A stretch of 64,000 nt of DNA, from assembly GCF_036250675.1 (NCBI RefSeq), contig NZ_CP109592.1, positions 1,550,001 to 1,614,000 on the forward strand, written 5' to 3'. The DNA is from Streptomyces sp. NBC_01689. GTDB lineage: Bacteria > Actinomycetota > Actinomycetes > Streptomycetales > Streptomycetaceae. This document shows positions 28,332 to 41,484 of the stretch, piece after piece; the first letter of the stretch is position 1, and each line of letters opens with the position of its first letter. The notes beneath the pieces are model-generated. The model did not search any database, was not told the DNA's origin, and worked only from the letters and a program-made list of their open reading frames with translations. The position numbers and the translations under genes were made by a program.

Positions 28332-28523
28332 TCAGCGATTCCGGATCGCTCCGCCCCGCCGCTCCGCGGGCGGCGCGTAGGTGTCCTCGTCCTCATCCAG
28401 CGGCGGCAGATCGACCGTGTACTGCGGCTGCAGAAACAGATCACTGTGCTGCGGCGCAGCCGGCACGTCGGATGCCTCCTGCGCGGGACGGGCAGAATCG
28501 GGCCTGGGCGAGACAGCAGCCAT
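28332..28523 (-). CDS. Small acidic hypothetical protein
   Basis: This 63-residue frame starts at ATG 28523. It is Pro/Ala/Ser-rich for its first half, followed by a distinctive SDLFLQPQYTVDLPPLDEDE stretch and an Arg-rich end. The composition is unlike a random shadow frame, and the acidic LPPLDEDEDTY segment looks selected. No domain is recognised. It could be a small conserved Streptomyces protein or a peptide precursor; no modification enzyme lies nearby. Confidence 0.42.
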   Translation of the reverse strand: MAAVSPRPDSARPAQEASDVPAAPQHSDLFLQPQYTVDLPPLDEDEDTYAPPAERRGGAIRNR

Positions 28524-28923
28524 ACACAACCATCCAGAGTTGAAAGTTGCACGGATCCGAAGCGGCGCGACCGGCGATGATCGGCGTCCAACTCCCCCGC
28601 GTATCGACCCCATTAGATCCCATGGGAGGCGGCAGACCCGCCACGGGAGCGCGTCGACCCGCATTTCGGCCCCGACGGCATCCGGGTCCGCGGTCACGGA
28701 CATTCGGCCCGACAGGCCGTGGGCGGCGGCCTTCACCCTCGGGCGGGGCCCCGGGCACCGATATCAGCGGGCGCGCCGGCCACCGTCCGGGGTCCCCGAC
28801 CCGCCGTCGGGCGCCCCGCGGGCCGGGCGCAGCGCCGCACGGGCCGACACACGGCGCTCCCCCGGGAGGGAGCGCCCGATCCTTCCGCGCTCGACCCCAT
28901 ACGGCCACCGGGCGACACCCATG

Positions 28924-28971
28924 TGGCACCACATGGCGCCATAGAGTGCCAGGTGGTGCCAGGTGGTGCCA
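28924..28971. promoter_or_regulatory. Five operator boxes in exact 10-bp phase
   Basis: Eight-base boxes begin at 28924 (TGGCACCA), 28934 (TGGCGCCA), 28944 (GAGTGCCA, degenerate), 28954 (TGGTGCCA) and 28964 (TGGTGCCA). The spacing is one helical turn throughout, as for tandem sites of ribbon-helix-helix repressors. The downstream gene encodes such a protein. Confidence 0.75.
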
Positions 28972-29004
28972 CTTCACTCCCGACGACACCACCTCGAAGA
29001 ACCA

Positions 29005-29121
29005 TGGCACCACAATCGCTTGGCAACCATGCCCGCATTCCCGCAGTTCAGGGGCGATTCCAGAAGTCGGTCACACAGCGTGGTGCCATTTAGGCTTGCG
29101 TTTGGCGCCATAATGGTGCCA
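29005..29121. promoter_or_regulatory. Further boxes up to the start of the RHH gene
   Basis: Single boxes occur at 29005 (TGGCACCA), 29081 (TGGTGCCA), 29103 (TGGCGCCA) and 29114 (TGGTGCCA). The last two flank a CATAAT at 29109-29114 that may be the -10 element, and they end 10 bp before the ATG at 29132, so occupancy would block transcription. Confidence 0.65.
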
Positions 29122-29131
29122 CCATAGCTTC

Positions 29132-29662
29132 ATGGACCTCACCCCGTATGTCGACACCCTCCGCCGCGAACTCGCGGTGGCCGCCGAGGCCGGCGGCGAG
29201 GAGGCGCGCGAGCTGGCCGAGAGACTGACCGCCCCCCTGGAGTCGGCGACCCGGCTGACGATGCTCAACGTGCTCTCCGCCGCGATGGACGAGGTCACCC
29301 TCGAACTCGCCCCCGGCTCGGTCGACGTACGACTGCGCGGGCTGGACCCCGACTTCGTCGTGACCCGGCCCCCCGCCGACGCCGGCCCCTCGGAGCCGGT
29401 CCCGCCGCCCGTGGAAGCCCTCAGGACCTCCGCTCCCGCGGAGGGCGACGAGAGCGGCACCGCACGCGTCAACCTGCGCCTGCCCGCCCATCTCAAGGCG
29501 CGCGCCGAGGAAGCCGCGAGCCGTGAGGGCCTGTCGGTCAACGCGTGGCTGGTACGGGCGGTGTCGGCCGCGGTCGACGGCGGCATCCCGTCACGGGCGA
29601 CCACGGAGAAGACCCGCACCACCCGCACCGTCGGACAGAACTTCACCGGCTGGGTCCGCTGA
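29132..29662 (+). CDS. Ribbon-helix-helix (HicB/Arc-type) regulatory protein
   Basis: This is a 176-residue protein. The N-terminal half is helical (LTPYVDTLRRELAVAAEAGG, then LTMLNVLSAAMDEVTLELAP), and the C-terminal part holds an RHH motif: TARVNLRLPAHLKARAEEAA then SREGLSVNAWLVRAVSAAV. Databases usually call such proteins HicB-family antitoxins, but no HicA toxin is adjacent. Instead it heads an operon with a DUF4097 protein and an ABC exporter, and palindromic boxes surround its promoter, so an autorepressor role is more likely. Confidence 0.82.
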   Translation: MDLTPYVDTLRRELAVAAEAGGEEARELAERLTAPLESATRLTMLNVLSAAMDEVTLELAPGSVDVRLRGLDPDFVVTRPPADAGPSEPVPPPVEALRTSAPAEGDESGTARVNLRLPAHLKARAEEAASREGLSVNAWLVRAVSAAVDGGIPSRATTEKTRTTRTVGQNFTGWVR

Positions 29663-29740: not shown

Positions 29741-30586
29741 ATGCCTGCTTTCGACACCCCCCAGCCGATCTCGGTCACCGCTCACGTGGCCGCCGGCTCC
29801 ATCCAGTTCTCCGCGAGCGACCGCACCGACACGGTCGTCGAGGTACGGCCCCGCGACCCGAAGAAGGACAAGGACGTACGCGTCGCCGAACAGACCGAGG
29901 TCACCTGCACCGGCGGCGTGCTCACCATCAGGACACCCAAGGGTCGCTACCTCGTCGGACCCACCGGCAGCATCGACGTCACGGTCGAACTGCCCACCGG
30001 CTCACACGTGGAGACGACCGGTTCCTGGACCCAGGTGCTGGGCGAGGGCCGGCTCGGCGAGGTCCGGGTGAAGACGTCGGCCGGTGACGTTCGCCTGGAC
30101 TCGACGGGCCCCCTGCAGCTGACCGCCTCCCACGGCTCGATCACCGTGGATCAGGTCGAGGGCCTGGCCGAGATCACCACCAGCTCCGGCAGCCTGCGCG
30201 TCGGTACCCTCCACGGTCCCGCCGTGCTCAAGAACTCGCACGGCACCACGAGCGTCGGCACCGCGATCGGCGAGCTGCGCGTGAGCGGTGCCAATGGCGA
30301 CATCGACATCCAGCGCGCGGAGAGCTCGGTCACCGCCACCACGGCCCACGGCACCCTGCGCGTCGGTGACGTGGCGCGCGGCACCGTCCAGCTGGAGACC
30401 TCCTACGGCGCCATCGAGATCGGCATCCGCGAGGGCACGGCCGCCTGGCTGGACGTCAGCTCGGGCAACGGACAGGTGCACAACGCCCTCACCCCGTCCG
30501 ACAGCCCCGCCGAGTCCGAGGAAACCGTCGAGGTCAAGGCACGTACCCGCTTCGGCAACATCGACATCCGCCGCCCCCGGGCCTGA
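29741..30586 (+). CDS. DUF4097 family beta-helix protein
   Basis: This 281-residue protein is made of repeated short strands (VRVKTSAGDVRLDSTGPLQL, then TASHGSITVDQVEGLAEITT and TTSSGSLRVGTLHGPAVLKN), the DUF4097/DUF4098 adhesin-like right-handed beta-helix pattern. No signal peptide or membrane helix is present, so this one is probably cytosolic or a scaffold. It lies 78 bp after the RHH gene and 121 bp before the ABC transporter. GGACGGGA precedes its ATG. Confidence 0.85.
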   Translation: MPAFDTPQPISVTAHVAAGSIQFSASDRTDTVVEVRPRDPKKDKDVRVAEQTEVTCTGGVLTIRTPKGRYLVGPTGSIDVTVELPTGSHVETTGSWTQVLGEGRLGEVRVKTSAGDVRLDSTGPLQLTASHGSITVDQVEGLAEITTSSGSLRVGTLHGPAVLKNSHGTTSVGTAIGELRVSGANGDIDIQRAESSVTATTAHGTLRVGDVARGTVQLETSYGAIEIGIREGTAAWLDVSSGNGQVHNALTPSDSPAESEETVEVKARTRFGNIDIRRPRA

Positions 30587-30707: not shown

Positions 30708-31745
30708 ATGCCTTCGTCTGTCATGCCCACATCCATCCGGAACGACGGTCGGCCGACACCGGCGGCGATCTCCGCCGTCGGGCTCCGCAAGTCCTACGGG
30801 GACAAGACCGTTCTCGACGGCATCGACCTGCACATCCCGGCCGGCTCGGTGTTCGCTCTGCTGGGTGCGAACGGTGCCGGGAAGACCACGGCCGTCAAGA
30901 TCCTCTCCACGCTGATCCCCGCCGACGACGGAGTGGCCCACGTCGGGGGCCACCACCTGACCACCGACGCCCGGGCCGTACGCGCCACGATCGGGGTGAC
31001 CGGCCAGTTCTCCGCCGTCGACGGCCTGATCACCGGCGAGGAGAACATGCTCCTCATGGCCGACCTGCACCACCTGCCCCGCACCCAAAGACACCGCACC
31101 GCCACCGACCTCCTCGCCCGCTTCGACCTCCTCGACGCGGCCGGGAAACCCGCCGCCACCTACTCCGGCGGCATGAAACGCCGACTCGACCTCGCCATGA
31201 CCCTGGTCGGCAACCCACGCATCATCTTCCTCGACGAACCCACCACCGGCCTCGACCCCCGCTCCCGCCACACCATGTGGCAGATCATCCGCGAACTCCT
31301 CACCACCGGCACCACCGTCTTCCTCACCACCCAATACCTCGAGGAAGCCGACCGACTCGCCGACCGCATCGCCGTCCTGCACCACGGAAAGATCGCCGCC
31401 GAAGGCACCCCCGACGAACTCAAACGACTCGTCCCCGGCGGACACATCCGCCTGCGCTTCACCGACCCCACCACCTACCGCACCGCCACCCACACCCTCA
31501 CCGACGCCACCCCCCACGACCACACCCTCACCCTCCAGATCCCCGGCGACGGCAGCCAGCACACCCTGCGCACCCTCCTCGACCGACTCGACACCGCCGG
31601 CATCCAAGCCGACGAACTCACCATCCACACCCCCGACCTCGACGACGTCTTCTTCGCCCTCACCCCCCACACCCACACCCACACCGACCCGGACACCGCC
31701 CGGCACACCACCCACACCCACCACACCAAGGACACCGTGCGATGA
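30708..31745 (+). CDS. DrrA-type ABC exporter ATPase
   Basis: This 345-residue ATP-binding protein carries Walker A (LLGANGAGKTTAVKIL), the signature YSGGMKRRLDLAMTL, Walker B (RIIFLDEPTTGLDPRSR) and a switch His region (TTVFLTTQYLEEADRLADRI), with the C-terminal extension of daunorubicin-resistance (DrrA) ATPases. The tail is an unusual His/Thr run. ATG 30708 has GGGGAGGG upstream. The stop overlaps the permease start by four bases. From about base 31080 the third codon positions become almost exclusively C, unlike the first third of the gene. Confidence 0.93.
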   Translation: MPSSVMPTSIRNDGRPTPAAISAVGLRKSYGDKTVLDGIDLHIPAGSVFALLGANGAGKTTAVKILSTLIPADDGVAHVGGHHLTTDARAVRATIGVTGQFSAVDGLITGEENMLLMADLHHLPRTQRHRTATDLLARFDLLDAAGKPAATYSGGMKRRLDLAMTLVGNPRIIFLDEPTTGLDPRSRHTMWQIIRELLTTGTTVFLTTQYLEEADRLADRIAVLHHGKIAAEGTPDELKRLVPGGHIRLRFTDPTTYRTATHTLTDATPHDHTLTLQIPGDGSQHTLRTLLDRLDTAGIQADELTIHTPDLDDVFFALTPHTHTHTDPDTARHTTHTHHTKDTVR

Positions 31746-32518
31746 GCTCCCTGTCCCTCGCCCTGCGCGACTCCTCCACCATGCTGCGCCGCAACCTCCT
31801 CCACGCCCGCCGCTACCCCTCCATGACCCTCAACCTCCTCCTGACCCCCGTCATGCTCCTGCTCCTGTTCGTCTACATCTTCGGCACCACCATGAGCGCC
31901 GGCGCCGGCCGCACCGCCTACATCGACTACCTCCTGCCCGGCATCCTCCTCATGACCATCGGCTCCACCGTCGTCGGCACCGCCGTCGCCGTCGCCACCG
32001 ACATGAACGAAGGAATCATCGCCCGCTTCCGCACCCTGCCCATCCACCGCGGATCCGTCCTCTTCGGCCACGTCGCCGGCAGCGTCCTCCAAGCCCTCAC
32101 CAGCACCCTCCTCGTCGCCGCCGTCGGCACCGCCATGGGCTTCCGCACCACCCACACCACCCCCCTGGAATGGCTCGCCGCACTCGCACTCCTGACCCTC
32201 TTCGCCCTCGCCCTCACCTGGATCGCCGTCGGCATGGGCATGAGCAGCCCCCACGCCGAAGCCGCCAGCAACAACGCCATGCCCCTGATCCTCCTGCCCC
32301 TCATCTCCAGCGCCTTCGTCCCCCTCCACTCCATGCCCGGCTGGTTCCAGCCCATCGCCCACTACCAGCCCTTCACCCCCGCCATCGAAACCCTCCGCGG
32401 ACTCCTCCTGGACACCCCCATCGGCAACAACGGCTGGATCACCCTCGCCTGGACCCTCACCCTCACCCTCCTCGGCCACCACTGGTCCACCACCCAGTTC
32501 AACCGCGAACCCAAATAG
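31742..32518 (+). CDS. DrrB-type ABC-2 permease
   Basis: This 258-residue ABC-2 permease has six transmembrane helices (first: MTLNLLLTPVMLLLLFVYIFG) and the ABC-2 signature region DYLLPGILLMTIGSTVVGTAVAVATD with DMNEGIIARFRTLPI. It is coupled to the ATPase (ATGA overlap) and forms with it a drug- or lipid-type exporter. Codon use is extremely C-biased through the whole gene. The last helix runs almost to the C-terminus. Confidence 0.92.
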   Translation: MSSLSLALRDSSTMLRRNLLHARRYPSMTLNLLLTPVMLLLLFVYIFGTTMSAGAGRTAYIDYLLPGILLMTIGSTVVGTAVAVATDMNEGIIARFRTLPIHRGSVLFGHVAGSVLQALTSTLLVAAVGTAMGFRTTHTTPLEWLAALALLTLFALALTWIAVGMGMSSPHAEAASNNAMPLILLPLISSAFVPLHSMPGWFQPIAHYQPFTPAIETLRGLLLDTPIGNNGWITLAWTLTLTLLGHHWSTTQFNREPK

Positions 32519-40126: not shown

Positions 40127-41484
40127 ACGGGCTCTTTCGAGGGAATGCGGGCGTGGACACGGAATCCGCCGTCCGGGCGGGTACCCGACAGCAGCTCGCC
40201 GCCGAACACCCCGACCCGTTCACGCAGCCCGAGCAGCCCGTGCCCGCCACCCCGGACGAGCGGTCCGGACCGGGGTGAGCCGGACGCGGCGGGCCCGGCA
40301 GGCGCGGCGGGCGTTCCCTCGGTGGTGACCTCGACCTCTATCTCCGCCCGTCCGTAACGGACTTGGACGTCCGTGCGGTGGCCGGGGGCGTGCTTGAGCG
40401 CGTTGGTCAGGGTCTCCTGCACCACGCGGTAGGCGGCCAGTTCCACGGCGGTGGCCAGGGGACGCCGCTCCCCCGACTCGGTCAGCCGCACGGGCTGTCC
40501 CGCCGCTCGGGTCTGCTCCACCAGATCGCCCAGCCTTCCGAGGGCCGGCGTCCGGCGTCCCGCGGGCCCACCGTCCGCGGCGCCGCCGTTCGCGGAACCA
40601 CCGTCCGTGGCGCCACCGTCCGTGGCGCCACCGTCCGTGGCGCCACCGTCCGTGGCGCCACCGTCCGTGGCGCCGCCGTCGGCGGGCGCACCGCCGGACG
40701 CCTTGAGGACGCCGAGCAGATCCTGAAGATCCGTCAGGGCGTGGCGGCCGGAGTCACTGATCGCTTCCAGACCCACGGCCACCCGGTCAGGAGCGTCGGC
40801 GAGCAGGTACTGGGCGGCGTCGGCCTGCACCACCATCGCGGTGACGTGATGGGTCACGACGTCGTGCAACTCCCGTGCGATACGGGCCCGTTCCCGCGCC
40901 ATGGCCGCCTCCACACCCAGCCGCCGCTGCTCGGTCTCGGCCGCCCGTCGCGCCCGTACGGCCCGGCCGGTGCCCCAGCAGCCGATCAGCACCAGGTAGA
41001 TGAGGACGTAATCGGTCGTCCGCTGCGGGGAACCTCTTCCGTACAGCCCCAGCGCGAACATCACGTACAGTCCGGTCGCGACCGCCGCCACCGGACCGAG
41101 GCGGGCGCCGTCGGCACGGGTCCCGTGGGCACCGAAGCTGTAGAGAGCGATGTAGAGTCCCCAGCTCGCCAACGTCTGTGGACAGCCGAGCAGTTCGTGC
41201 ACGGCGAACGCGCCCGCCACCAGGCCCAGGCAGATCCCCGGCCACCGCCGCCGCAGCACCAGTGGCAGCCACAGGGCGAGCGCGAGCAGGACTCCGGCCA
41301 GGTCGTAGGGGCGCTGCGGCAGATCACCGAACTCCGCGCCGATCCGTGCTGTCACGGGTGCGAACACCACCGGCGCGAGCAGCAACGTGCAGACCGCGTC
41401 CCGTTCCACCACGCTCAGCGCACTCCAGCGCGCCACACCCACCCGCGCCCTGCCCAGGAAGGGTGACGCCGTCGCCTCGAACAC
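40123..41484 (-). CDS. NarL-type sensor histidine kinase
   Basis: This 453-residue kinase has about six N-terminal transmembrane helices, a HisKA_3 dimerisation domain (RIARELHDVVTHHVTAMVVQ, with the phospho-His in ELHD) and a HATPase_c domain (VVQETLTNALKHAPG, HGLLGLRERVGVFGG). Between the two lies an unusual spacer of GGATD repeats encoded by a 15-bp tandem array. It is coupled to the response regulator gene. The sensory signal is unknown. Confidence 0.93.
   Translation of the reverse strand: MFEATASPFLGRARVGVARWSALSVVERDAVCTLLLAPVVFAPVTARIGAEFGDLPQRPYDLAGVLLALALWLPLVLRRRWPGICLGLVAGAFAVHELLGCPQTLASWGLYIALYSFGAHGTRADGARLGPVAAVATGLYVMFALGLYGRGSPQRTTDYVLIYLVLIGCWGTGRAVRARRAAETEQRRLGVEAAMARERARIARELHDVVTHHVTAMVVQADAAQYLLADAPDRVAVGLEAISDSGRHALTDLQDLLGVLKASGGAPADGGATDGGATDGGATDGGATDGGATDGGSANGGAADGGPAGRRTPALGRLGDLVEQTRAAGQPVRLTESGERRPLATAVELAAYRVVQETLTNALKHAPGHRTDVQVRYGRAEIEVEVTTEGTPAAPAGPAASGSPRSGPLVRGGGHGLLGLRERVGVFGGELLSGTRPDGGFRVHARIPSKEPV
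40601..40675 (-). repeat. 15-bp tandem repeat inside a histidine kinase
   Basis: CCGTCCGTGGCGCCA is repeated at 40601, 40616, 40631 and 40646 exactly and at 40661 with one change, with decayed copies on both sides. On the coding strand it gives five GGATD units in the linker between HisKA_3 and HATPase. Confidence 0.9.

Follow-up and report, generated by a model that had tools for sequence, protein, structure and literature searches.

The window analysed here is a stretch of 64,000 nucleotides from Streptomyces sp. NBC_01689 (contig NZ_CP109592.1, positions 1,550,001 to 1,614,000 of the forward strand), and our subject is a group of short palindromic boxes, TGGYRCCA, in front of a four-gene operon. 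The gene order RHH-DUF4097-ABC given in the initial annotation of the window was found behind the boxes, as a ribbon-helix-helix (RHH) protein, a DUF4097 (Toastrack) protein, a DrrA-like ATPase and a permease, and the sequence makes it likely that the 176-residue RHH protein is an Arc/MetJ-like autorepressor of its own DrrAB-type exporter operon, with the boxes as operator. The features of the locus are as follows; coordinates are those of the window, distances are counted from the ATG at 29132, and the boxes are given without strand.

28924 to 28931: box TGGCACCA, -208, first of the distal 10-bp array, exact match.
28934 to 28941: box TGGCGCCA, -198, distal array, exact match.
28944 to 28951: degenerate box GAGTGCCA, two mismatches, in phase within the distal array.
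28954 to 28961: box TGGTGCCA, -178, distal array, exact match.
28964 to 28971: box TGGTGCCA, -168, distal array, exact match.
29005 to 29012: box TGGCACCA, -127, exact match; 104 upstream regions contain 38 exact boxes at -127 to -129.
29081 to 29088: box TGGTGCCA, -51, exact match; at most one mismatch in 48 of 123 close homologues.
29096 to 29101, plus strand: predicted -35 element TTGCGT; TTGC at -36 to -33, each base in 93-98% of 123 close homologues.
29103 to 29110: box TGGCGCCA, -29, exact match, inside the 18-bp promoter spacer; at most one mismatch in 116 of 123 close homologues.
29114 to 29121: box TGGTGCCA, -18, exact match, overlapping the predicted -10 element; at most one mismatch in 120 of 123 close homologues.
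29120 to 29125, plus strand: predicted -10 element CACCAT, homologue consensus CATGAT; transcription is predicted to begin at the ATG or directly beside it.
29125 to 29132: third 11-bp-phased box position, consensus TGGCGTCA, sharing the A of the ATG; at most one mismatch in 89 of 123 close homologues.
29132 to 29662, plus strand: predicted RHH regulator, 176 aa, strand R112-V-N114-L-R116; homologues labelled HicB in databases.
29741 to 30586, plus strand: DUF4097 (Toastrack) protein, 281 aa, following the RHH gene.
30708 to 31745, plus strand: DrrA-like ABC transporter ATPase.
31742 to 32518, plus strand: ABC-2/DrrB-like permease.

Eight boxes at the locus match TGGYRCCA exactly. Five boxes at exact 10-bp steps had been described at the distal end; the phasing holds and four of the five are exact, the middle one (28944) carrying two mismatches, and the four further boxes described up to the start of the RHH gene are exact at 29005, 29081, 29103 and 29114. 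The step is 10 bp among the distal and 11 bp among the proximal boxes, where the third position is degenerate in this genome (TAGCTTCA, three mismatches). The whole window contains 14 exact boxes against 4.17 expected, a number reached in 0 of 100 shuffles, and the five-box 10-bp pattern, with at most three mismatches, matches it once (0.00 expected). The genome search that had been proposed for TGGYRCCA pairs at 10-bp spacing found exact pairs at two places in the assembly of 9,958,319 bases, both at this locus. The four-box 10-bp pattern and the promoter pattern (each with at most three mismatches) and the exact 11-bp pair were likewise found only here, the promoter pattern as a single, exact match; a wider regulon was rejected on these four scans (10-bp pairs, 11-bp pairs, promoter pattern, four-box pattern), whose controls gave 0, 2, 1 and 0 matches, the controls of the promoter pattern and the 11-bp pair being backward patterns. 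A separate row of TGGCGCCA boxes lies at 40608-40675 (four exact, 40608-40660, and one near-exact, at 15-bp steps). It looks like a coding repeat of ATDGG units on the minus strand rather than an operator, and is unrelated.

Homologous loci were collected in sets that are not independent: one set holds the best 80 of 448 confirmed homologues, and the others come from drawn genomes. Loci were left out of the upstream set when the match started after residue 3, when there was no start codon or when fewer than 100 upstream bases were present; duplicate rows, with the same last 120-150 upstream bases, were also dropped, as was L223 in one set, and L321, L322, L333, L340, L341, L342 and L344, for which no start was found, were dropped from the set of 328 loci. 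Conservation of the boxes upstream of orthologous operons had been set beforehand as one point on which the idea could fail, and they are kept: at least one proximal box (TGRYRYCA, at most one mismatch, near -29 or -18) is present in 324 of the 328 homologous loci and both in 265, compared with 4.3% and 0.06% when the last 60 bases are shuffled; the loci without any proximal box are L338, L379, L386 and L390. Among 161 distinct upstream regions, 123 belong to close homologues (at least 72% identity), 115 of which have both boxes with at most one mismatch, and 38 to more distant ones, which have a box near -29 in 37 cases and near -18 in 19. The density of exact boxes per 400 bp is 3.73 in 104 upstream regions and 0.03 in the coding region, with some loci still unoriented. 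At the genus level the RHH homologue was found in 90 of 150 genomes and exact boxes paired at a 10- or 11-bp step in 63, gene and pattern occurring together in 58, the pattern alone in 5 and the gene alone in 32 (Fisher p ~1e-12, uncorrected for relatedness). Broader searches found homologues in 118 of 345 genomes class-wide and 156 of 249 order-wide.

Three of the five pattern-only loci adjoin a gene that we take, by eye, to be MerR-like, or its usual neighbour. Near locus position 2001 of L191, L192, L194, L195 and L196 a palindromic site of the type TGGTGCCA-NN-TGGCACCA stands directly before this gene (peptide GRLDDDDYPAYTMGRAAE), which, with its site, occurs whether or not a genome has the RHH gene; the site is probably a look-alike that belongs to another regulator.

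In the consensus of the close homologues CTTGCG is followed by the -29 box and, after a gap of three bases, by the -18 box, whose end merges into CATGAT; GGCGTC and the ATG come next. TTGC from -36 and CATGAT at -12 to -7 thus leave a spacer of 18 bp, which is filled by the two boxes. The initial annotation had pointed to a CATAAT straddled by two boxes; the string is present at 29109-29114, but it spans the variable three-base gap, and homologues do not keep its TAA. The -10 element is therefore probably CACCAT at 29120-29125 and not this string. In the 101 Thr/Ser loci (named after residue 114, see below) with a -18 box, TTG[AC] is found at -41 to -30 in 92 and the A and T of the -10 element in 92; 63 have a box step of 11 bp, and 33 one of 12 bp. 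Because the predicted start falls at the ATG, and because Shine-Dalgarno-like strings occur at -18 to -4 in only 4 of the 328 loci, the operon message is probably leaderless.

The distal array was analysed in the 123 close loci with boxes 60-420 bp upstream and at most one mismatch, where 1431 box pairs lie no more than 100 bp apart. Their spacing fits a period of 9.9 bp best (9.9-10.0), with a vector strength of 0.78, compared with 0.56 at 10.5 and 0.32 at 11 bp, and the pair distances fall on 10 (268), 20 (190) and 30 bp (125), none being found at 15, 16, 25 or 26 bp. An exact 10-bp pair is present in 43 of the 123 loci, and exact distal boxes number 2.2 on average against 0.64 in shuffled sequence. 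The proposal of an operator upstream in addition to the promoter sites is therefore borne out in close homologues by an array that is both conserved and phased at 10 bp. Further upstream, at 400-3400 bp, only 9 of 2346 locus pairs (69 loci) show similarity, and the nearest upstream gene, according to a rough GC-based gene finder, is co-directed in 37 cases and divergent in 28, with none found in 5. Since the upstream genes differ and the box array is kept, the array goes along with the operon; its assignment to a divergent upstream gene was rejected, as the genes there differ in kind and strand. At -400 to -100 the number of boxes is 5.08 in close loci and 2.20 in more distant Asn-type loci of the genus-level set (0.54 in shuffled sequence for both). 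For Asn types of other genera the observed and shuffled figures are 1.12 and 0.60, for Thr/Ser types 0.45 and 0.12. All four groups show an enrichment of boxes at -100 to -40, and the best period over all boxes is 10.5-10.7 in the three outer ones. Distant homologues thus lean more on proximal and near-upstream boxes, and the distal array is clearest in the close group. Upstream of the array region, at 28334-28519 on the minus strand, there is a short open reading frame with an acidic DEDEDTY stretch, the 62-residue piece of which has no Pfam match.

As far as sequence can speak to it, the strongest new evidence is the covariation of residue 114 of the RHH protein with base 3 of the box: Asn goes with TGG, Thr and Ser mostly with TGA. 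Half-sites of Asn114 proteins have 715 G, 56 A and 1 T at this base; the counts are 217 A, 72 G and 3 C for Thr114, and 70 A and 38 G for Ser114. By locus, Asn114 is found with 207 G-type, 0 A-type and 13 undecided cases, and Thr/Ser114 with 68 A-type, 6 G-type and 32 undecided. In 92 non-redundant loci column 114 leads the scored columns (those with more than 30% gaps were not scored) with a corrected mutual information of 0.72, the next reaching 0.30, and it predicts the box type with an accuracy of 94.6%; outside its own genus-level set it stands at 0.70 and the next at 0.39. Additionally, nine genomes, hand-listed among those fetched, carry both an Asn and a Thr copy, and in 9 of 9 the boxes of the Asn copy are the more G-rich (L316 and L368 were left out of these pairs). 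It seems that one amino acid in the RHH protein sets which box is read. Thr types with the strand R-T-T-L-R (L254, L264, L265, L266, L274, L371) have mixed boxes, TGACACCA then TGGTGTCA, a pair that also occurs in other Thr types, e.g. L334, L357 and L385; it looks as if the two half-sites were read differently.

In the 176-residue protein the sequence and the predicted model indicate a strand-helix-helix fold with a DNA-reading strand. Residues 1-108 have no Pfam match, and the model places two long helices there; the top rows of a structure comparison with a second-look aligner are helical matches to this N-terminal part and may mean nothing. Matches of the whole protein to TAL effectors in the PDB were rejected, being sums of many weak repeats of which no single stretch passes. 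The only match of the protein in its own genome at E 1e-5 is the locus itself, and a protein search gave at least 7405 relatives among 7998 candidates scored; among the 120 relatives listed, HicB-family antitoxin and hypothetical protein are frequent names, and a few entries are called histidine kinase. The gene behind it is DUF4097 in 98 of 103 loci, and RHH, Toastrack, ABC ATPase and permease stand in a row in 83. A conserved GW pair (29636-29659) in the loose C-terminal tail of the RHH protein is possibly a contact for DUF4097.

Binding, repression, cooperativity, the role of DUF4097, the inducer and the exported compound we infer as follows. One palindromic 8-bp box would be read by one RHH dimer, whose two-stranded ribbon (R112-x-N114-x-R116) would enter the major groove. 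An 11-bp step separates the boxes at -29 and -18 and the one at -7, if it is intact; they lie between the predicted -35 and -10 elements and at the start point of the probable leaderless promoter, so that dimers bound to them would keep RNA polymerase away. The 10-bp array of Streptomyces and its near relatives, about 160-230 bp upstream, would take up further dimers along roughly one face of the helix, and these could strengthen repression cooperatively. An inducing signal, perhaps a membrane-active compound and perhaps acting via the cytoplasmic DUF4097 protein, would lift repression, and the DrrAB-type exporter would be made. A more ambitious joint reading, which is rather doubtful as a whole, supposes a class-wide actinobacterial family, often annotated as antitoxins, in which Asn114 reads TGGYRCCA and Thr/Ser114 reads TGACGTCA, insulating paralogous repressors in one cell; Streptomyces and near relatives would have added the 10-bp array, seeding an RHH filament that loops onto the 11-bp-phased leaderless promoter, and Toastrack would be an anti-repressor that senses membrane damage.

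Several observations weigh against autorepression through these boxes. The control patterns match 28 of the 150 genus-level genomes, where the true pattern matches 63, and the lone 11-bp pair is not beyond chance in one genome, because its backward control matched twice; for this pair conservation across loci is what counts. A sigma-70 consensus scan of 28520-29140 gave no promoter. The upstream array thins out in distant homologues, and 20 of 103 loci gave no complete operon. Profile matches to solved RHH repressors are not significant, the top row of the PDB search being Arc (E = 0.092), in register with R-x-N-x-R. The covariation has exceptions as well: six Thr/Ser loci have G-majority boxes (L183, L275, L280, L368, L381, L404), 45 loci are undecided, and two further copies in the nine paralogue genomes, L316 (Asn, half-sites 2 G and 2 A) and L368 (Ser, G in 3 of 4 half-sites), fit less well. 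Its tree-independent support is thin. The best tree covers 128 of the 328 loci, 103 of them with both traits and the strand columns excluded; it has at least 9 changes of the residue and 11 of the box, but its branch support is poor and only one independent pair lies on well-supported branches. A smaller tree gives 4 residue changes and also 1 independent pair. With one such pair a sign test cannot be significant, so that shared ancestry may still account for the covariation.

The database names of the homologues and a Pfam HicB match to the RHH part would suit a true HicB antitoxin of a toxin-antitoxin pair, with boxes that serve ordinary antitoxin autoregulation. We hold this to be highly improbable: the match is limited to the 31-residue RHH part (residues 113-143), HicA (PF07927) has no match in the genome at E <= 0.001, the RHH and DUF4097 proteins are without a match in PADLOC, and DUF4097 is the usual next gene. 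The initial annotation had already taken the HicB-labelled protein for the repressor of an exporter operon; the promoter boxes in 324 of 328 loci, the covariation of residue 114 and the missing HicA match speak for that view, and the promoter it pointed to needs revising.

It is also very unlikely that another regulator binds the boxes and controls the operon, with the RHH protein at work on other sites. This genome does encode three other HicB-type RHH domains, and look-alike sites stand before the MerR-like gene in other genomes; however, the box type is predicted by residue 114 of this very protein, with the other scored columns far behind, and the exact 10-bp pairs are confined to this locus. 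Pure steric repression does not usually involve an array 160-230 bp upstream, and AmrZ and NikR of H. pylori both activate and repress (PMC3325190). Still, activation via the distal array, or a switch between activation and repression, appears unlikely, as the most conserved boxes, at -29 and -18, lie in the core promoter, where binding should block the polymerase, and the distal array is weaker in distant homologues. Autorepression through the promoter boxes thus stays the preferred explanation.

The gene neighbourhood is already in print; the boxes, their spacing and conservation, the promoter layout, the operon and the residue-base covariation were computed here. No description of the operator, the phasing or the residue switch was found in the literature searched, most subscription journals being outside its coverage, nor was a characterised family member, and among the titles listed for the box sequences none was on the subject. 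If our reading is true, proteins named HicB antitoxins are exporter repressors whose operator can be read from the promoter, and a switch labelled antitoxin in databases regulates itself and a drug-type export pump in soil bacteria. The pairing of a strand residue with a base would be a simple and testable DNA-reading rule for RHH proteins, and the family would offer a handle on the role of Toastrack proteins.

Among the known systems LftR, a PadR-type repressor, has another DNA-binding fold than the RHH protein here and is alike as a repressor of an exporter. The LftR/LieAB system of Listeria is described as an antibiotic-induced repressor of an efflux pump (PMC6624303). Toastrack proteins recur beside envelope-stress and export genes, and sub-membrane signalling is proposed for them (PMC11237479); one sentence of the same source gives the RHH-Toastrack-ABC neighbourhood of Actinobacteria, the same as here, and its section 27 gives no operator, promoter or specificity. 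Lun1/TmcL is shown beside a DUF4097 gene and marked 'unknown' (PMC9866976); from its size and neighbour, Lun1 may belong to the RHH regulator family. In ParR-parC, RHH dimers sit on 10-bp repeats, and the arrays can flank and repress a promoter (PMC5016525). The likeness lies in an RHH protein whose own promoter carries an array of 10-11 bp repeats, whereas here there is no (actin-like) motor gene in the operon, which is a chromosomal exporter operon, and the boxes are palindromic and the repeats fewer. Arc, Mnt and AmrZ share the RHH fold with the 176-residue protein. Their ribbon residues i, i+2 and i+4 face the bases, and the subsites of Arc are spaced 11 bp; unlike them, the protein here has a long helical N-terminal domain and a tail, palindromic 8-bp boxes and an extra upstream 10-bp array. 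MetJ contacts DNA with Thr25, and its boxes are directly adjacent, at 8-bp steps, whereas those here follow at 10- or 11-bp steps in another gene context. In both systems, however, the boxes are tandem and palindromic; those of MetJ, 8 bp long, are read by RHH dimers, with the met box consensus AGACGTCT (PMC4239095), and the boxes of the Thr-type members here, TGACGTCA, share that GACGTC core.
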